Shown: positions 1,773 through 12,019 of the stretch, in pieces
Layout: the number at the start of each line of letters is the position of its first letter
Position numbering within the stretch: the first letter of the stretch is position 1
Origin: Candidatus Gastranaerophilales bacterium
Lineage (GTDB): Bacteria; Cyanobacteriota; Vampirovibrionia; Gastranaerophilales; Gastranaerophilaceae
Direction of reading: 5' to 3'
NCBI GenBank assembly: GCA_944323985.1
Contig: CALUUP010000002.1
Span: forward strand, 62,001-126,000
DNA: 64,000 nt
Position numbers and translations under genes: made by a program
The notes under the pieces: model-generated
Databases searched by the model: none
Told to the model about the DNA's origin: nothing
What the model saw: only the letters and a program-made list of their open reading frames with translations

Positions 1773-2789
1773 TTAATTAAACAATTCTTTATTCATTTTA
1801 TCAATTTTTTTTCTAAAATCTTTATCTATTTCTAAAACTTTAGAATGATTTATTGCCTCCAAAAAAATTTTGTCATCAATCTTATTAGCCACATCAATTC
1901 TTGCAGGCACAACCAAACCTGTAGATAAAAAATATTCACTACATCTGGAAGAAGACAAATATCTTATAAATTTTAGGGCAGCTTCTTTATGTTTAGATTC
2001 TTTGGCAATAGCCCAACCGGAAGAATCTAAAGGAACAATACCTGGAAAAATAATAATATCCCAATCAAAATCTGCTTTTTCACTTATCTTGGGATACATC
2101 CAACGTCCTGAAAGATAAAGTCCAATTTTCCCTTCTAAAAACATTTGTCCTAAAGTTAAACTTCCAACTTGAGATGGTGTTGGTGCATATCGTCCTTCCA
2201 AATTTTTATAATATTCTATTGATTTTTTAGGTGAATAAATATCTTCTCCCATGGTTAAAATATAAGGAAAAGAGTAGTACAAATTTCTTTCATAACTTAT
2301 TCCATAATTAGAACTTTTAGATATAACATTGATTAGCTCTTCTAAATTAGTAGGATTTTTTTTTATCAAATTCTTATTTCTATAAAATACCAATGTTGAA
2401 ATATCTCTTGGTACAGCTAATAATTTTTTATCAAAACTTAAAGCTTCTATACTTTGAGAATAAAATTCATCTTTATCAATTATATTACTCAAATCTTCTA
2501 ATTTATCTGCATAAACAGGTAAATACAAATTATTAACAAATAAAACATCCGGAGCTTGGTGAGATGCGAATAATAAATGAACTTTCTGAAAATAATTTTG
2601 AGGAATGTGTATAAAATTTATCTTTATATCAGGATTTTCTAACTCAAAATCATTAATTATATTTCGTAAAATTTTGGTTTCTGTAACTGTTCCCCAAGAA
2701 GAAAATGTTATTTCCTCAACATTACTATTTTTATCGCAACCGGTCAAAAAAAATGGAATTAAAAGTAAGATTAATAATCTTCTTAACAT
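1773..2789 (-). CDS. ABC-type extracellular solute-binding lipoprotein
   Basis: A 338-residue lipoprotein. The signal peptide has a lipobox, LTGC, with the lipidated cysteine at residue 18. The mature part resembles family 1 (sugar-type) solute-binding proteins: ITFSSWGT near the start, then FELENPDIKINF, APDVLFVNN and GLYLSGRW in the middle. Such proteins deliver sugars or related ligands to an ABC permease. No permease or ATPase gene lies nearby. Its start overlaps the end of the FimV-like gene by 7 nt, so the two are translationally linked. A sensory rather than transport role within the chemosensory locus is possible but is inference. Confidence 0.78.
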   Translation of the reverse strand: MLRRLLILLLIPFFLTGCDKNSNVEEITFSSWGTVTETKILRNIINDFELENPDIKINFIHIPQNYFQKVHLLFASHQAPDVLFVNNLYLPVYADKLEDLSNIIDKDEFYSQSIEALSFDKKLLAVPRDISTLVFYRNKNLIKKNPTNLEELINVISKSSNYGISYERNLYYSFPYILTMGEDIYSPKKSIEYYKNLEGRYAPTPSQVGSLTLGQMFLEGKIGLYLSGRWMYPKISEKADFDWDIIIFPGIVPLDSSGWAIAKESKHKEAALKFIRYLSSSRCSEYFLSTGLVVPARIDVANKIDDKIFLEAINHSKVLEIDKDFRKKIDKMNKELFN

Positions 2790-5425
2790 AAATCCATTAT
2801 AAACTCCATATTATCTTTGGAAACATTCATAATAAATTTATGAATACCAATCCTTACTATATATCTATAAGTATTATTATCTATTTTTTCAGTTTTACGA
2901 GCCTGAATAACTTCTGTCTTTAATCGTTCATAATATTTAATCTTAAATAACTTATCCCCAACAAACCCCAAAATACAATATCCGGAACTATTCTTAACCA
3001 AATGGCAACCCATATTATCCGCAAAATTTGTAGTTGAAACTATTTCATAAATTGAATTATCTACAACACAAGTTTTAACAACACTGCTATTAATCTTATC
3101 TAATTCATCAGATTTAACATTATCTACAACGTTTTTCACCATTTTTTCTTGATTAGCTAATCTATTTTGTTTTTCATCCTGTTTCTTTTGAATTAAATCT
3201 AACAAAGCCTTTGCATCACGATTTTTATCATCAAAACTTTCATCCCCAACATCATCTCTAGATTTATCCAAATCAAAATACTCATTACTAAACAAAGATT
3301 CAAAATCATCATTATCATTTTCAGAAGAAAAAGGCATTACTTCATCATTATCCTTAATAATTTCAACACTATCCCCTACCCCTTGTAATTCAGCTTGAAT
3401 TTCAGAAAAACTTGGAGCGACCTCTTGATAATTATTCTCTTCCTCTTCACTGTAAAAAGGCTTAAATGTAACATTTGTAATATTACGTAACAATGCTTCT
3501 TCATCAACTTCTACAGGAGCAGCAGTCTTAGCATCCAGTTCCTCTTGATGCTTAATCATTGCATCTAAATCTAAAAATTCATCTGATACTGATAATTTAT
3601 CAACATCATATCCTGTTTCTGCATATTTAATTTCATCAGAAGGTCTTGAAACATATGAAGCTTCATTATTTATCTCAACAGATAAATCCGGCAATTGATC
3701 TTTTAAAGACAAAACACTTACATCATACCCTTCGCTATAATAAACTACTTGAGGTTTATATTCTGATTCGATTCTCTTTCCACCTTGTTTCTTTAATGCA
3801 TCAGATAAATTAGGTAACATATCTTTAACATTTAACGTTAATATCTCAGATTTTTTATGACTAACTCCACGATTATTTTTTATCTCTTCCTGCATCATTT
3901 TTATTCTATTTGGATTAGTCCGCAAATCCGTTATAAAATCATTATCCAATTCTACGCTCATTAATTTATCCAAAGCGTTAATATCTTCTTCAGTAAAAAC
4001 TATATTTTGATTAATTGTATAAGTTGTAACAATATTCTCTAAAAGTTCCTGTCTTGAAACTCTCTTCTCTATCGGGTTAGTAACTACATATTTATCTATG
4101 TTATTAACCGTTTCATCATTTATCTCTATTTTTAATAACTCATTAATTTTTACAATATCATCTTTCGTGAATAGTAAATTTTCATCATTAATATACTTAT
4201 TATAAAGCTCTTCATTTATCTTATGTTCATCTTCGATAATTTCATCATCTTCTTGCTGATTGTCAAAAACATAAGCACTTAAAAATTCTTCTAACGCTAA
4301 ATTCTCTTCTTCATCTTGACTATCATCTATACTTAAATCAACACCTTCCTGATTAGAGCTTGGCTGTTTAGTAGAACTTAAAATTTCATCTAAATCTACA
4401 ATATTTTCATTATCAACAACTTCTACTGGCTTAACAACATCTTTAGGCTTATCCTCATTATATTTTAGACTAACATTAGACACATACTTTTTATCAAGCC
4501 TGTTAATAACACTACCAATTTCTTTTTTCTTATTAACATTTTTTTTATTTTTATCTTTATCTTTATTTTTTGTATCATCACGAGGTTCATCAATATCAAA
4601 ATCAGCTTGTTCACCAATAATCTCAGCTATCTTATTTTTTCCACTAACGTAAAAATAAACTGAAGCTACAATTATTAACAAACACCCCAACAATAATAAA
4701 TATACTTCAGACCCTTTGCTTCCAACTTTAACATCCTCAACACTATTATCTACAGGCTTGTTTCCATGAGCAAGAGCCTCAGAACTCTCTTCTCTATCTA
4801 AAGATGCAGAATCTTCTTCTGCTCTACTAATATCTTTCTCAGAAGTCCTATCATCATTTACATTTGAGCTCTGAGAATCTTTATTTTCACCTAAGTCATT
4901 AGGATTTAAACTAGAATTATCAACATGAGCAGGTCTATCTGGAACAATTATTTCTTCACGCTCTTTTGTAGAAGGCGAATTATTCACAGGATTAGACATA
5001 GCATTAGCAGAAGAATCTGTTAGCATAGGATTTGTTTTATCCGGTATAAACACTGCATTTTGAACAAATAATGAAGTGTTAGGAACAACCTTTAAAGTAA
5101 TTTTAGTATATCCCTTACTGTTTTTAGTATAAGGCATAGTTTTCACTTCTACACTATCCACCAAATCTGATAACTTAGGCGGAGTAGAAATACTGTCATT
5201 TATTTCAGGAAGCATTAAAACATATGTATCTGCACTAACCTTAACCGGATTAACTCTATTCGCATAAGTTTTTTGAGTATAAAAAGTAAGATTAGTAGTA
5301 TGAGAAGTACCTTCAAACTTCAAAGACATTAAATTATCTTTAAAATTTCCAGCACCAAAAGCCCCTACTACTGTAACAACAGATGCCAATATTAATGAAA
5401 TTGTTCTCTTCTTATACCGGTTCAT
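2783..5425 (-). CDS. Large FimV-like bitopic membrane protein of unknown function
   Basis: An 880-residue protein that I do not recognise by sequence but whose architecture is clear. It has a signal or anchor segment at residues 7-26 and a small periplasmic beta-rich domain at about 40-130. A Ser/Asn/Asp-rich linker follows, then one transmembrane helix at about 241-261. The cytoplasmic part is about 600 residues, very acidic and low-complexity, with recurring DMLPNLSDAL / DQLPDLS / DEFLDLD motifs. A compact beta-domain closes the protein at about 785-880. Periplasmic domain, single helix and long acidic cytoplasmic tail recall FimV/TspA hubs of type IV pili. Its place beside CheW and CheA genes supports a link to surface motility or sensing. 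The start codon sits 7 nt after an extended -10, so a leaderless mRNA is likely. Confidence 0.7.
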   Translation of the reverse strand: MNRYKKRTISLILASVVTVVGAFGAGNFKDNLMSLKFEGTSHTTNLTFYTQKTYANRVNPVKVSADTYVLMLPEINDSISTPPKLSDLVDSVEVKTMPYTKNSKGYTKITLKVVPNTSLFVQNAVFIPDKTNPMLTDSSANAMSNPVNNSPSTKEREEIIVPDRPAHVDNSSLNPNDLGENKDSQSSNVNDDRTSEKDISRAEEDSASLDREESSEALAHGNKPVDNSVEDVKVGSKGSEVYLLLLGCLLIIVASVYFYVSGKNKIAEIIGEQADFDIDEPRDDTKNKDKDKNKKNVNKKKEIGSVINRLDKKYVSNVSLKYNEDKPKDVVKPVEVVDNENIVDLDEILSSTKQPSSNQEGVDLSIDDSQDEEENLALEEFLSAYVFDNQQEDDEIIEDEHKINEELYNKYINDENLLFTKDDIVKINELLKIEINDETVNNIDKYVVTNPIEKRVSRQELLENIVTTYTINQNIVFTEEDINALDKLMSVELDNDFITDLRTNPNRIKMMQEEIKNNRGVSHKKSEILTLNVKDMLPNLSDALKKQGGKRIESEYKPQVVYYSEGYDVSVLSLKDQLPDLSVEINNEASYVSRPSDEIKYAETGYDVDKLSVSDEFLDLDAMIKHQEELDAKTAAPVEVDEEALLRNITNVTFKPFYSEEEENNYQEVAPSFSEIQAELQGVGDSVEIIKDNDEVMPFSSENDNDDFESLFSNEYFDLDKSRDDVGDESFDDKNRDAKALLDLIQKKQDEKQNRLANQEKMVKNVVDNVKSDELDKINSSVVKTCVVDNSIYEIVSTTNFADNMGCHLVKNSSGYCILGFVGDKLFKIKYYERLKTEVIQARKTEKIDNNTYRYIVRIGIHKFIMNVSKDNMEFIMDLC

Positions 5426-5432
5426 ACTTTGT

Positions 5433-5441
5433 ATATTAACA
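5433..5441 (-). promoter_or_regulatory. Extended -10 promoter abutting the FimV-like start
   Basis: On the minus strand TGT-TAATAT, within TATGTTAATAT, ends 7 nt before the ATG, with no Shine-Dalgarno sequence between. The predicted transcript starts at or next to the start codon. No good -35 is visible. Confidence 0.5.
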
Positions 5442-5474
5442 TAATAAGCTTAATTTCACTATACTTTATTTGAA

Positions 5475-6476
5475 TTACATATCAGTTACAATAATTCTCT
5501 TATCAGAAGAAATTTTTTCAATATTTAAAACTGTATACAAATTTCCATTATACATAAACTCATTAGCATAATAGCCTTCAGCAGCTTCGATAAAACCGTC
5601 TTCTTGAAATTCAAAAAGTTCATTTATTTTATCTATCAATAAAGCCAATTTTAACTCATTACACTTTATAATAATAACCGGCTTTTTATCTTGTAACAAA
5701 GAATTCGAAAGATTTAAAAATTTTTTCAAATTAATAACTGTAATATAATCCCCTCTTAAATTCATAATACCTTCAATAAAATCCGGAGTACCAGGAACAT
5801 TAGTTACAGATGTATCCTTCAAAACTTCTTTTACATAATCTAAAGCTATACAATAATAATCATCATTCAAATTAAAAGATATATATTTATTTTTAACATG
5901 CAATTCCCCAGAAGCAAGTTTTAAACTAGCTTTATCAATAATCGACAAAGTCCTTTTTGCCATAATTGATTTTGAATGTTCATCCTGCGGAAATAACGAA
6001 AGAATATCAACTTCCTTCCACTTATTATCATGTTGCTTTAATAAATTTTCAATAGCATAAATATTTATTACAAAAATAGTTTCATTATTGAACTTATATA
6101 AAGAATCTATGACCATTTTATTATCGACAAACGGTATTGCATCCATTAAAGCCGTATCAAAAGGCAAAATGCCAATAACTCGATCTGTAATAATTCCATA
6201 AATTACTTCATCAGTCTTAACGATTAACAATTCATTATGAATATCATAATTAGGGACATCAATATTCAAATAAAATCTTACATCTATAACATTTATTACA
6301 AAATTATTATACTTCAACAAACCAACAATATTATTTGGCAACTTTTGAGGATAATCTAATGCCGGTAATTTCATAATTTCCAGAATATTATCTGAATTAA
6401 TAGCATACTTATTATCGCCAATTTGGAAATATAAATGAGTATTCTTTTTTTGTTCAATATAGTTATTGTTGCTCAT
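5475..6476 (-). CDS. Tandem CheW-domain coupling protein
   Basis: A 333-residue protein made of two CheW-like SH3-type domains, at about residues 12-150 and 192-325. The first has YFQIGDNKYAINSDNILEIM and the second YISFNLNDDYYCIALDYVKEVL. Both show the usual pattern, including PNNIVGLLKYNNFVINVIDV and FIEGIMNLRGDYITVINL. CheW domains bridge chemoreceptors and the CheA kinase. Two copies in one chain could replace a pair of separate adaptors such as WspB and WspD. The gene overlaps the end of the response-regulator gene by 14 nt, so it is co-translated with it. No catalytic site is expected. Confidence 0.88.
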   Translation of the reverse strand: MSNNNYIEQKKNTHLYFQIGDNKYAINSDNILEIMKLPALDYPQKLPNNIVGLLKYNNFVINVIDVRFYLNIDVPNYDIHNELLIVKTDEVIYGIITDRVIGILPFDTALMDAIPFVDNKMVIDSLYKFNNETIFVINIYAIENLLKQHDNKWKEVDILSLFPQDEHSKSIMAKRTLSIIDKASLKLASGELHVKNKYISFNLNDDYYCIALDYVKEVLKDTSVTNVPGTPDFIEGIMNLRGDYITVINLKKFLNLSNSLLQDKKPVIIIKCNELKLALLIDKINELFEFQEDGFIEAAEGYYANEFMYNGNLYTVLNIEKISSDKRIIVTDM

Positions 6477-7920
6477 ATAACATTACCCGATTACGCCCAC
6501 TTTCTTTAGCCTTATACAAAGCTTCATCAGCAGATTTTAACATTTCAGAATGAGTATTAAATTCTTGATAATTTGTCGTCAGCCCAATACTAACAGTAAC
6601 TTTCGCCTTCACTCCATTGTATTCAAAATCATAATCTTCAACCATTCTACGTAATCTTTGAACAGGAATAACCGCCCCTTCAATATTGGTTTCAGGCATC
6701 ATCATAACCATCTCTTCCCCGCCATATCGATAAAGCAAATCCGTTTTTCTAAAAGCAGCTTTCATCAAATCAGCGACAGTCTTCAAAACATAATCCCCAT
6801 ATTGATGCCCATAAGTATCATTAACCTTCTTAAAGAAATCAATATCCAAAATTGCTAAACTAAAATCCGAAGGATGTCGTTTCGTACGGTTATACTCTTG
6901 CTCCAAACTTATTTCAAACTGTCTTCTATTATATAAACCGGTTAAACCATCTAATACAGACATAAATTCTTTTTCTGTGTATTGATACTTCATTTTAAAT
7001 ATCGCAAGTAACTCACTAATCATAATATCAAAATATCTAAAAGAAGCATAATCCATATCCTGTCTGGTATAGAAACATATTCCACCAATCAATTTTTTAT
7101 CAAATACCATCGGAATAATAATTTTTGATTTCAAATCAGTAAACTGATAATCAAGTTCTTTGCCTAAAAGAATTCTAACGACTTCGAATTTAGCAGCATT
7201 AAACTTCTTAAATTCTTCCATCTTTCTAAAAAAATCATATTGAATATCAGATAAAAAGCTTTTGCTAAAATTTCTTCCTAATGTATCAATATATAAAATA
7301 TTTTCAGCGAAATCATCAGGAGAAGCAAAGAAAATTCCCGCAACACTATACTCAACAAAAGAACTCACTAAAGAAAACAATTTTTCAACCAAAATTCTCT
7401 CATAATTCAAAAAATCACTCAAATTTCTGAATTCATTAGCAAAAACAGACTTCAACAACAAATCATTCAAAATTGTATTCAAACGGGTTTGAGCGGAATT
7501 TTCAGTAGAAGCTTTTTCTAAAATCAAGTTTTTGTATTCATCAGTAACAGGATAACGCCTTATTGTAGCATTGATATTCCTAACGAGTTCATTCATATCA
7601 ATGGATTTAGATAAAAACAATTGCGCCCCAGCTTTTTTCCCCCAAAAACTATCAATCTTCTTATCCAATACCGTGAGCAATATAACAGGAATTTTTTTCA
7701 CGGCATCAACATTTTTAATCATTCTACATAACTGATACCCGTCAATAATCGGCATCATAATATCAGAAACCACGACATCCGGAATGCATTCAAAAAGTTT
7801 TTTATAAGCTTCTGCCCCGTTAGTAGCAGTTTCAACTTCAAACCCACTATTTTGAAGCCCATCTTTCAAAAACTTTAATTGCGTCTCACTATCTTCTACT
7901 AATAAAATTTTCGCTACCAT
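6463..7920 (-). CDS. Response regulator with diguanylate cyclase output (REC-GGDEF)
   Basis: A 485-residue response regulator. The receiver domain (1-120) has the acidic pair ED at 9-10 and phospho-acceptor D53 in VVVSDIMMP. A middle region of about 200 residues looks GAF-like. The C-terminal GGDEF domain has the active motif GGEEM at 400-404 and an RxxD inhibitory site at R391-D394, five residues before it. It should make c-di-GMP when phosphorylated and be product-inhibited. It is the natural output for the CheA-REC kinase encoded divergently, an arrangement like WspR. It starts the leftward unit with the tandem CheW gene, which it overlaps by 14 nt. Confidence 0.92.
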   Translation of the reverse strand: MVAKILLVEDSETQLKFLKDGLQNSGFEVETATNGAEAYKKLFECIPDVVVSDIMMPIIDGYQLCRMIKNVDAVKKIPVILLTVLDKKIDSFWGKKAGAQLFLSKSIDMNELVRNINATIRRYPVTDEYKNLILEKASTENSAQTRLNTILNDLLLKSVFANEFRNLSDFLNYERILVEKLFSLVSSFVEYSVAGIFFASPDDFAENILYIDTLGRNFSKSFLSDIQYDFFRKMEEFKKFNAAKFEVVRILLGKELDYQFTDLKSKIIIPMVFDKKLIGGICFYTRQDMDYASFRYFDIMISELLAIFKMKYQYTEKEFMSVLDGLTGLYNRRQFEISLEQEYNRTKRHPSDFSLAILDIDFFKKVNDTYGHQYGDYVLKTVADLMKAAFRKTDLLYRYGGEEMVMMMPETNIEGAVIPVQRLRRMVEDYDFEYNGVKAKVTVSIGLTTNYQEFNTHSEMLKSADEALYKAKESGRNRVMLYEQQ

Positions 7921-8003
7921 CTATTTATATATTCCAATTTTATCGATTTTAGTATAAAATAATTATATACTAAATACTAAAAAAAAACTATAGGAGAGAA
8001 AAA
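7921..8003. promoter_or_regulatory. Divergent promoter region of the chemosensory locus
   Basis: An 83-bp spacer between the response-regulator and receptor genes. It holds TATACT -10 candidates on both strands, at 7951-7956 (minus) and 7966-7971 (plus). These form an inverted repeat, AGTATA-N9-TATACT, which could also be an operator. TAGGAGAG at 7991-7998 is the ribosome site of the receptor gene. The -35 elements are weak. Confidence 0.45.
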
Positions 8004-9050
8004 GTGTTGAGCGAATGGAATTTTGGATTAAAACAAAAGTTTAATATTAAATGTATAATTGACTTAATAGTATTTATATTAGGATGTATTCTTTTTGTCC
8101 TATTTGCGAAACTAAATCACGTTCAAGCATACGATACATTTGTGTTTTTAATAATTATTATAGCATTAAGCGGAACCACCCATTTTCTAACAAAACAATG
8201 GATATTAAAATCAATAAAAAAATCATTCACATCCCATTCTGAATCATTAACAAACACAACAAATGAAATATTAAATACATTTGCAGAACAAAAAAAAGTA
8301 TTCGAAATATTAACAACGAACACAAAAAATATTTCAAGTTTAATTGAAAAATTAAAAAACATTTCAGAAAATTCAGTATTAACAACAAAAAACACAGAAA
8401 AACAAGTTAATCAATCTATAAACTTTTCACAAAAAGAACACGAAGCAATAGCATCAAATGCTGATAAAATGTTAGTATTACGCCAAAAAATCCAAATGAT
8501 AGCAGAATTAATTTTGGAATTATCCGAACATTCTCAACAAATAGGAAATACAATAAGCGTAGTTGATGACATAGCAGAACAAACAAACATGTTAGCACTT
8601 AACGCAGCTGTAGAAGCTGCAAGAGCTGGGGAACACGGAAAAGGTTTTGCAGTTGTTGCAGGAGAAATCAGAAAATTAGCAGATGAGTCAAAACAAGCAA
8701 TTACTAAAATTACATCTTTGACAAGCAATATTCAATACACAACGAATTCTACTGTAATGGCAACAGAAGAAGGTTCAAAAGAAATTGAATCTGTGGTTAA
8801 AGATATAAACACCGTTTCAACAAACTCAGAGGTACTATTAAACCTAATAAAAGAGATATTAGAATCACTGGAAATAATTAATCAAAATACCAGCAAACAA
8901 AGTGAAATAATAGAGCGATTAAATTCAATAGACGAAGAAAATTCATCTATTGCGGAATCTCTTTTAGAATCAATGAATACAAATACAAACAAAATAACAC
9001 GACTAAGTAATTTATCAAACGAAATAAAGAATTCAGCAATTGAGGGTTAG
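8004..9050 (+). CDS. Methyl-accepting chemotaxis protein without a sensory domain
   Basis: A 348-residue chemoreceptor. Two transmembrane helices (about 17-36 and 45-62) are separated by only about 8 residues, so there is no periplasmic ligand domain. No HAMP domain follows. The rest is a cytoplasmic signalling coiled coil with the conserved hairpin tip around [19 protein letters not shown] and [15 protein letters not shown]. It should bind CheW and CheA and may sense a membrane or cytoplasmic state, or a partner protein. The start is GTG at 8004 or TTG at 8007; TAGGAGAG just upstream supports either. The cheA-like gene follows after 5 nt. No CheR or CheB gene is present in the window. Confidence 0.92.
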
Positions 9051-9055
9051 CATAA

Positions 9056-12019
9056 TTGAGTTTTGCCGATAATGAAAACAACAAAGAAGTAATGTCAATC
9101 TTTCAGGCGGAAACAGAAGAGATAATAGAGCGTCTTTTTTCGAATTTTTTTGAATTAGAAATAAATCCGACAAATAGAGAAATTATAGCATCGACTTATC
9201 GTGATTTACACAGCCTTAAAGGTGCTGTTCGTATGGTTGGGTATAACAATATCCAGAACATAATACATAAAATGGAAGACATCTTTGATGCATTAAATAA
9301 TTTAGAGTATCAATTAGAAATAAATGTATTAAAGTTAATGTCAAATACATTAGGAATTGTATCAAAATACCTTCAAGAATCTATTAGAAATTCAAGAGAA
9401 ATAATAGGAGAAGAGTACACAGCTACAATTTCCAATTTAGAATACATAATCGAAGTAGAAATTCCTGAACAAAAAAATAATAAGCCTCAAAGTATAATTT
9501 CATCGGAACAAAAGAATGAAGAAATAGATAAAGTATTAACAGAAAATCAAGAAATAATAAATCTTTCATTCAATAAAAGTTTCGAACTCATCGATGGGAT
9601 TATACCGGAAGAAGAAACTCAAGACATAGTAATTTTAAAAGAAGAAATTCAAAAAATTTATGATTTTATAAAAAATTCAAACTTATACGAGGTAAAAACC
9701 GCATTAGAAAATATAATTACAAAACTTGATTTTGTAATGAATGCAACCAATACACTTACAATAAGCGAAATTTTAGAGTTAAGAAACGAACTCAGTTCGG
9801 CTGCTGCAAAATTTACAACATCTTGCATAGAAACAGAAGAATCCGATTTTACATTTTTTGACGTAGCAGAAAAAATAACAATGCTACAAGGAAGTAGTGT
9901 CTACACAAATGAAATAAAAGAAGATATATTAAAATTAAAAGAAAAAGTAGAAGATCCAAATATTCTTGAAGTAATAACAACAGTACTAGAAATTTTAGAT
10001 TTCATACTTGACAATTCAGTTCAATTAGAAGAACAAATGATGTTAACGCTAAAAAGTGCAATAGAATATTGTGCTTCACCAAGTGAAAGTATAGATAGTG
10101 ACTTAATTGTTCAACAATTAGAAATAATGAAGCAATTGTTGGAATTAAATTATAAAAAAGATTCCGACGTAAGCGAGGTTAAGAATCTATCAACACAAAC
10201 TTCAACGGGCCAGAAAGGTTCCTCATCTTCTACAGAAATCAAAACATTACACGTAAATGCTCAAAAACTGGATTTATTGGTAAACCAGCTTGGAGAGTTA
10301 ATTATAACCAAAATAAAAACAGAAAAAAATCTTGAAAAAATTGATAGTATAAAAAATGCAAATGAAAACTGTCAAAAAGACTTATTAAAAACCTCGAACT
10401 ATTTAAGGTATTATAATCGCAAGTATTTACAAGCCGGAAGCAGTGAACAATACACCGGCGCATTTGTAAAACAAGTATTTTCTTTACTATCAGATATTAC
10501 CCAAAACGTTTCTCGAACAATATATGATTTAAATTCTTTATATCGTTCATCAAAAGAAGATGATATGAAAATGCGTTTAATCATAGACGAAATGGAATCA
10601 ATGGTTAAAAATATTCGTGTATTACCAATATCAACCGTTTTTAATTCATTTTCAAGAATGGTTCGCGATATTGCAAACGAAAAAGGAAAAGACATCGATT
10701 TTGAAATAGAAGGTAAGGATACCTGTGCAGACAAAAAGATTATTGAAGAAATAAAAACACCTTTGATACATATATTAAGAAACGCAATCGATCACGGTAT
10801 TGAAACAAAAGATGAAAGAATTGCAAGCGGAAAGAGTCCTGTCGGCAAAATTTTGTTATCAGCAAAGCAGGATGATAATAAAGTCATAATAGATGTTATA
10901 GATGATGGTCACGGTTTTAATCTGGAGAAAATAAAAGATAGAGCAGTGTCAAGAGGCTTCTTAACCCAAGAAGACATTGATTCAATGACAGATGAAGCTA
11001 TTATGAATATCATTTTTTGGCCAGGATTTACCACAGGAGATTCAATCTCAAGTATTTCCGGAAGAGGTATCGGCTTAGATGTTGTAAAGACTAAAATATC
11101 ACAGTTAAACGGTAAAGTAAAAGTCATATCAGAATTTGGAAAAGGCAGTTGTGTTCATATAGAAATTCCTGTTACATTAACTACTTTAAGAGTATTTTTA
11201 GTAAAAATATCCGAACAAACTTTTGCTATACCAATTCAAGTTATCACAACTTTTATACTTAAAAATCATAACGAAATAAAAACAAATAATGGAAATTGTT
11301 CAATAACTTATAACGGAAAAATTATACCATTATATTATCTATGCGATATTTTAAAACTAAAACCAATTCCTAGAGGGGAAAAAGAAACTATTCTGATTAT
11401 AGAAACAGATGAAAAAACCATTGGTTTAGTTGTTGATAAATTACTTGGTGATCAGGACATTTTACAAAAAAAATTATCACCACCTTTATATAAGGTAAAA
11501 AATATTTCAGGAATAACAAATTTAGCATCAGGAGAATTGTGTTTAATTCTGAATATGCAAGATATTATGCACTATGATTTTAATAAAGCAATGACATCTG
11601 CAAATTCTCCAGCCTTATTAACTTCGGATATTCTAGCATACAAACGTATTCTTATTGTAGACGATTCGGTAACAACAAGAATTATGATAAAAAATATATT
11701 ATTAAATTCAGGATATATGGTTGACGCAGCTCTTGATGCGGAAGAAGCTATGGTTAAATTAAAACTTAATCACTATGATTTGATAATAACCGACATAACA
11801 ATGCCTAAAATTGATGGCTATGAATTTATCGACCAACTAAAAACCGACGAAATGTATATGGACATACCAATCATAGTAATGAGTTCTATTAGTCGAGAAG
11901 CTGCGGCAAAGAAATTATCACAACATAAAGTTGATTACTACATTTCAAAAGATAACTTTAACCAAACAGAGTTATCACAACAAGTTAAAAAAATCCTTAC
12001 TAAGTATCATAACGCATAG
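9056..12019 (+). CDS. CheA-type histidine kinase with C-terminal receiver domain
   Basis: A 987-residue hybrid chemotaxis kinase. In order it has an HPt domain with phospho-site H52 (RDLHSLKGAVRMVGY), a long helical linker, and a dimerisation domain near 400-540. The kinase domain has the N box HILRNAIDHGIE, DDGHGF and GRGIGLDVVK. A CheW-like domain follows, then a receiver with phospho-acceptor near D913 (LIITDITMPKIDGYEF). A fused receiver is typical of WspE, PilL/ChpA and cyanobacterial Pil/Hmp kinases, where it acts as phosphate sink or second output. The TTG start is preceded by GAGGG; a downstream ATG (MSIFQAETEE) is the alternative. The 3' end overlaps coaD by 20 nt on the opposite strand. 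Confidence 0.93.
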   Translation: MSFADNENNKEVMSIFQAETEEIIERLFSNFFELEINPTNREIIASTYRDLHSLKGAVRMVGYNNIQNIIHKMEDIFDALNNLEYQLEINVLKLMSNTLGIVSKYLQESIRNSREIIGEEYTATISNLEYIIEVEIPEQKNNKPQSIISSEQKNEEIDKVLTENQEIINLSFNKSFELIDGIIPEEETQDIVILKEEIQKIYDFIKNSNLYEVKTALENIITKLDFVMNATNTLTISEILELRNELSSAAAKFTTSCIETEESDFTFFDVAEKITMLQGSSVYTNEIKEDILKLKEKVEDPNILEVITTVLEILDFILDNSVQLEEQMMLTLKSAIEYCASPSESIDSDLIVQQLEIMKQLLELNYKKDSDVSEVKNLSTQTSTGQKGSSSSTEIKTLHVNAQKLDLLVNQLGELIITKIKTEKNLEKIDSIKNANENCQKDLLKTSNYLRYYNRKYLQAGSSEQYTGAFVKQVFSLLSDITQNVSRTIYDLNSLYRSSKEDDMKMRLIIDEMESMVKNIRVLPISTVFNSFSRMVRDIANEKGKDIDFEIEGKDTCADKKIIEEIKTPLIHILRNAIDHGIETKDERIASGKSPVGKILLSAKQDDNKVIIDVIDDGHGFNLEKIKDRAVSRGFLTQEDIDSMTDEAIMNIIFWPGFTTGDSISSISGRGIGLDVVKTKISQLNGKVKVISEFGKGSCVHIEIPVTLTTLRVFLVKISEQTFAIPIQVITTFILKNHNEIKTNNGNCSITYNGKIIPLYYLCDILKLKPIPRGEKETILIIETDEKTIGLVVDKLLGDQDILQKKLSPPLYKVKNISGITNLASGELCLILNMQDIMHYDFNKAMTSANSPALLTSDILAYKRILIVDDSVTTRIMIKNILLNSGYMVDAALDAEEAMVKLKLNHYDLIITDITMPKIDGYEFIDQLKTDEMYMDIPIIVMSSISREAAAKKLSQHKVDYYISKDNFNQTELSQQVKKILTKYHNA

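Follow-up and report, generated by a model that had tools for sequence, protein, structure and literature searches.

Background

The Wsp system of Pseudomonas (WspA-F and WspR; PMC8552884) combines a receptor, two CheW domains encoded by separate genes, a CheA-REC hybrid kinase and a REC-GGDEF output protein with an intact active site. Another described kind of system is found in cyanobacterial and deltaproteobacterial operons encoding CheR-TPR fusions, which are typical of the alternative-cellular-function (ACF) type (PMC3447774), and in which the receptor gene adjoins that of a CheA-REC kinase. The subject here is a locus sharing parts with both, found in a 64,000-nucleotide stretch of a Candidatus Gastranaerophilales genome (the window; G000:C2:62001-126000), the host genome being 1.86 Mb in size and 97% complete. 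Its core, referred to below as the module, consists of genes for a minimal chemoreceptor, a CheA-REC kinase, a tandem CheW coupling protein and a REC-GGDEF regulator, i.e. a receiver domain linked to a cyclase domain; beside these stand genes for a large membrane protein, the hub, and a solute-binding lipoprotein. The cyanobacteria have a sister group that does not photosynthesise and lives mostly in the gut, and the Gastranaerophilales belong to it. For gut Melainabacteria, flagella but no chemotaxis genes have been described (Di Rienzi 2013, PMC3787301), and a termite-gut relative has been reported to have some chemotaxis genes (PMC5877343).

The module may be best understood as a reduced chemosensory array with cyclic di-GMP (c-di-GMP) output, a reading in which confidence and doubt are evenly matched. 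The system is of a known kind, and its reduced form is new; no published description of it was found in a literature search made without most subscription journals. Many flagellated members of the family have no other chemosensory system, and the module is without the known adaptation elements. It can serve as a natural experiment on how an array functions when receptor methylation is lacking, and on how chemosensory signalling can be redirected from the motor to a second messenger.

A conserved four-gene core

All six genes that a first-pass annotation had described from the raw sequence are present at the positions it gave, with intact frames, and Pfam agrees with the descriptions, the hub being without a family. 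They form two transcription units that diverge from an 83-bp promoter region (7921-8003), which varies hardly at all across most of the genus and contains no match to a flagellar sigma-28 promoter. Rightward, on the forward strand, lie the receptor (8004-9050; Pfam MCPsignal, 8.5e-35) and the CheA-REC kinase (9056-12019; Pfam Hpt, H-kinase_dim, HATPase, CheW and REC). Leftward, on the reverse strand, follow the REC-GGDEF regulator (6463-7920; Response_reg, 3.5e-23; GGDEF, 2e-46), the tandem CheW protein (5475-6476), the hub (2783-5425) and the lipoprotein (1773-2789), separated in turn by a 14-bp overlap, a 49-bp gap and a 7-bp overlap, near contacts that fit a single operon. The term 'tandem CheW' was apt, this being one protein of 333 aa with two CheW stretches (1e-41). 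Since the three CheW domains of the whole genome are all found at this locus, as is its one receptor, the module is the genome's only chemosensory system.

The layout in which the cyclase and tandem CheW genes run one way and the receptor and CheA-REC genes the other was recovered in all nine genomes of the window genus, in genera g15, g16 and g19 of the family, in families f2, f3, f6 and f7 of the order and in named metagenome-assembled genomes (MAGs); one f6 genome, L100, is an exception, its receptor and CheA genes standing apart from the other two. Conserved synteny of all six genes had been proposed as a check, and it holds across the order for the four of the core, REC-GGDEF and CheA included; for the hub and lipoprotein it is confined to the window genus. 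As read from its genes, the module is a conserved divergent unit without methylation enzymes and the sole chemosensory system of a bacterium with flagellar genes.

In many relatives, and absent from the window genus, a small HD-domain protein (Ppx/GppA domain III) is encoded directly after CheA (L087:2606-3202, and similarly in L085, L088, L092, L094-L096, L099 and L101). A record titled 'uncultured Acinetobacter' (L109) contains a Gastranaerophilales module with 78-79% identity to the one in the window, and is probably a mislabelled MAG.

In alignments across the order, His52 of the CheA Hpt domain is invariant. The regulator of the window has a GGEEM active site and an RKTD I-site, the intactness of which had been remarked on at first pass, and conservation of the receiver residues Asp53 and Lys105, the I-site R391xxD394 and GGEE 400-403 extends order-wide with one exception, g17. 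With these residues intact the c-di-GMP output proposed earlier is plausible, and the REC-GGDEF protein is presumed to be the output of the module. The module was not found to have a CheY-like or stand-alone REC gene of its own; the two stand-alone REC genes of the genome (C5, 127 aa; C10, 125 aa) both lie apart from che genes, the C5 one in the company of a hybrid kinase gene and one resembling those of secretion ATPases. The regulator also has a middle domain of ~195 aa, previously overlooked, which by eye resembles GAF, an identity for which a Pfam search gave no match. The receptor has hydrophobic stretches near its N-terminus (about 11-64), a conserved signalling tip and no sensor domain, as judged from alignment and hydropathy, and sensor-less receptors of this kind are found order-wide, including where no hub gene adjoins.

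Absence of methylation enzymes and of the methylation motif

The earlier statement that the module has no methylation enzymes was borne out: no CheB was found in the genome, and neither CheR nor CheB within 10 kb of 41 module loci, a search in which the control was positive. The existence of dedicated CheR and CheB partners elsewhere, a concern raised at first pass, finds no support either: the one CheR-like methyltransferase gene in the genome (L055:4516-5322) is divergent, gives no match to the CheR N-terminal domain and is found on a different contig, next to type I restriction genes.

A methylation-site consensus near the signalling tip is present in one of 21 module receptors, compared with 19 of 23 cyanobacterial receptors encoded beside a tandem CheW (CheWW) gene; as it was detected in only 11 of 18 more distant receptors, the motif pattern is not a perfect detector. 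These frequencies indicate that the loss of the adaptation enzymes was probably accompanied by loss of the receptor's methylation target.

Ancestry of the CheA kinase

A tree built from 68 CheA cores, with the root drawn at the midpoint, unites the Gastranaerophilales sequences in one clade (100/100), sister to the kinases of cyanobacterial CheWW operons and two deltaproteobacterial ones (98/83). By its position in this tree, the module CheA falls in an ACF-like grouping with the kinases of CheR-TPR/CheB operons (branch 100/92, sister branch 98/83). The other cyanobacterial CheA sequences constitute a separate clade (100/99), which we take to be of the type IV pilus type, and the module kinase falls outside it. 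The sister operons, with genes for CheR-TPR, CheWW, receptor, CheA-REC and CheB, encode the tandem CheW of oxygenic cyanobacteria, the same protein as in the module; they differ from the module in keeping CheR, CheB, a receptor sensor region and mostly the methylation motif, and in having different response regulators. The simplest reading of the direction of change is that CheR, CheB and the sensor domain would have been lost and the cyclase gained.

The WspE kinases, represented by Pseudomonas and Achromobacter loci with the full Wsp gene order (L149, L151 and L172), are in a different, strongly supported clade, and the grouping of the Gastranaerophilales kinases with WspE as one clade was rejected under the model used (approximately unbiased (AU) test, p 3.9e-94). 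In comparison with Wsp, the module also has no equivalents of the CheR-type methyltransferase WspC or the CheB-type WspF, no sensor domain, an extra middle domain in the cyclase and, in place of two separate CheW genes, a single fused protein. The Wsp membership suggested at first pass could therefore not be sustained: the module is not Wsp, and its parts suggest that it works like Wsp.

The hub and the lipoprotein

The 880-aa hub has a signal-like N-terminus, one transmembrane stretch (~234-263) and a long acidic cytoplasmic part with short repeats, in which 126 Asp and Glu residues stand against 65 Lys and Arg among 527. Pfam gave no family match for it. A confident predicted model of the periplasmic domain finds its best solved match in AmiC 33-137, the AMIN region (Z 7.6, root-mean-square deviation 2.8, 89 aligned residues, 1.7 above the next match), and Pfam AMIN is weak on hub relatives (0.027 in one of 20). 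The last 100 residues are predicted with confidence to form a beta domain (predicted local distance difference test score 94.5), for which there was no convincing match among solved structures. FliO models match ten of 20 hub relatives (best 2.6e-7), the window's own hub not among them; the full-length relative L052 matches FliO in two libraries, above the Pfam curated cut-off, and hhalign of the C-terminal domain to FliO proteins is weak (33%). A separate, canonical FliO is encoded in the flagellar cluster of the genome. Proteins with AMIN and FliO domains have been described in flagellar systems, and species without flagella have some relatives of FliO (PMC12403147). The AMIN-FliO proteins would share with the hub an AMIN-like domain, the transmembrane stretch and a FliO-like cytoplasmic domain, whereas the hub has an acidic insert of ~500 residues and its gene lies away from fliPQR.

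FimV, to which the hub had been likened, is a peptidoglycan-binding membrane protein; with its acidic tail it binds a cyclase and activates it (PMC7033161). The likeness proved to be one of layout only, comprising a likely peptidoglycan-type periplasmic domain, one transmembrane stretch, a long acidic cytoplasmic part and, for the hub, a cyclase gene nearby; the hub appears AMIN-like rather than LysM-bearing, ends in a putative FliO-like domain and gives no TPR match. Membership of the FimV/HubP family was rejected, as no LysM, FimV C-terminal/TPR or FimV family match was found in Pfam or NCBIfam. Because of the cyclase-activating tail, FimV is an apt functional comparison, and by the tests made it is not a relative.

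In genus g14 the hub homologue is ~300 aa long, without the AMIN-like part, retains the FliO-like end and is still paired with a solute-binding protein gene (L019:799-1755, L020:1024-1908 and L023:835-1755).

Hub and lipoprotein genes stand beside the module in 9/9 genomes of the window genus, and also at the named loci L105 and L109. They are absent beside it in the near relatives RUG14187 and RUG14285 (CheA 73-76% identical), where genes identified by their sequence as folC/mutS and thrS take their place. In g15 the pair is located away from the module, and in g2 genomes (G018, G043 and G137) it occurs without any CheW domain. The description of these proteins as two new parts of the module had to be given up on this distribution, which fulfils what the first-pass annotation had itself named as refuting it: they are a pair of their own, guests of the module and not core parts. 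The hub evolves much faster than its neighbours, with about 45% identity where CheA has 82%, and a scan of named genomes with the hub as query gave no match. The lipoprotein has an extracellular solute-binding, family 1 domain (Pfam SBP_bac_1, 6e-26) and is the regular partner of the hub gene in the family; no permease gene was found in its neighbourhood, the only area searched for one.

A possible flagellar output

The window genome has fliO, fliP, fliQ, fliR, flhB and flhA in one cluster, and flagellin was found in a genus relative. A PilZ gene, at L271:3857-4453 (4.5e-15), adjoins flhA, as is also seen in family f7, giving c-di-GMP a plausible candidate target at the flagellum. Every one of the 33 family genomes that carry a second FliP, of flagellar type, encodes CheW; among the remaining 91 the figure is 11, and the count is not corrected for shared descent. 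Secretion/pilus ATPases occur in each of the 146 genomes, whether or not CheW is present, so that co-occurrence with type IV pili is uninformative and indicates no specific link.

FliP matches as such occur in 145 of the 146 Gastranaerophilales genomes, including those without the flagellar type. At L274:7964-11929 and L275:7682-11785, a short FliP gene has FliO-, FliQ-, FliR- and FliN-like genes beside it and no flhA or flhB nearby, a cluster that looks like a non-flagellar export gate.

In the most economical reading, each step of which we infer, a lattice of receptor, CheW and CheA would phosphorylate the receiver of the cyclase, a phosphotransfer predicted from sequence; the phosphorylated REC-GGDEF protein would make c-di-GMP, and this, less certainly, would affect the flagellum by way of the PilZ protein whose gene adjoins flhA. 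The receiver on CheA may be a phosphate sink or modulator. Lacking CheR and CheB, the array would behave as a switch that adapts slowly or not at all, and might read the state of the membrane or envelope, or a partner protein. Only in the window genus would the AMIN/FliO-like protein and the lipoprotein have been added to the operon; their role there may be to anchor or tune the module, as FimV does for a Pseudomonas cyclase. Taken in full, i.e. as an array without methylation adaptation or CheY that rules the flagellum only via c-di-GMP and PilZ, was stripped from a cyanobacterial-type CheR/CheB ancestor and in one genus became coupled to an AMIN/FliO-like envelope protein, this account is tentative and invites more doubt than belief.

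Several observations weigh against the reading of the module as a reduced array with c-di-GMP output. Genera g14, g20, g23 and g25 have no cyclase gene in the module (at this place only, no search having been made for a relocated copy), and in g17 its GGDEF motif has decayed; the output in these genera must be another, and the cyclase is less strictly conserved than the sensing core. As g14, g23 and g25 retain the flagellar-type FliP, the route from array to PilZ cannot hold for all relatives. The 11 genomes that keep CheW without a flagellar-type FliP, the uncorrected nature of the co-occurrence count, and six further GGDEF matches elsewhere in the genome count on the same side. In its favour, another c-di-GMP enzyme occupies a place in the module of g15, where a GAF-GGDEF-HD_5 protein gene (L086:12463-14400) follows tandem CheW at the position held by the hub in the window genus.

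Alternative explanations

The flagellated genera g14, g23 and g25, which lack the cyclase gene but retain CheA, CheW and receptor, would be readily accommodated if the module served flagellar taxis, with the receiver on CheA or an unlinked CheY-like protein signalling to the motor and the GGDEF protein as an accessory. The tight co-occurrence of CheW with flagellar-type FliP and the existence of two stand-alone REC genes are consistent with this; however, neither of these genes is near che genes, one having a hybrid kinase and secretion-ATPase-like gene for company, there is no CheR or CheB for temporal sensing, and CheW is retained in the 11 genomes mentioned. Flagellar taxis is thus possible, though on the unlikely side. 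Those same 11 genomes would suit a surface-sensing, biofilm-promoting system in which matrix or pili would be the target of c-di-GMP, as in Wsp, the flagellar link being incidental; the part list is that of Wsp minus WspC and WspF, the GGEE and I-site are intact, and secretion/pilus ATPases are available in every genome. Yet the ubiquity of the ATPases deprives them of any specific link, the PilZ gene is in the flagellar cluster, and CheA lies outside the WspE clade, leaving this an improbable explanation. That the module is a true Wsp system which has lost wspC and wspF, for which the similar parts and wiring might be cited, is very hard to credit given the AU test and a tandem CheW shared with cyanobacterial kin instead.

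It has also to be considered whether the hub and lipoprotein are the module's missing periplasmic sensor, the ligand-loaded lipoprotein binding the hub, whose tail would act on CheW and CheA or on the cyclase. The constancy of the gene run in the genus and at L105 and L109, the lack of a sensor domain in the receptor and the precedent of FimV all point this way, but the pair occurs in genomes without any CheW, sits at a different site in g15 and does not adjoin the module in two close relatives, while receptors are sensor-less across the order, where no hub adjoins. A sensory role of this kind consequently seems a distinctly poor prospect.

Neighbouring genes

Downstream of the lipoprotein, at 1000-1728, the window encodes a 242-aa glycosyltransferase-looking protein with no Pfam family. 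No match to defence-system families was found for this protein, the hub or the lipoprotein. The glycosyltransferase-like protein is 93-97% identical among the genus genomes that have it at this place, as against about 33-75% for the more divergent hub and lipoprotein.

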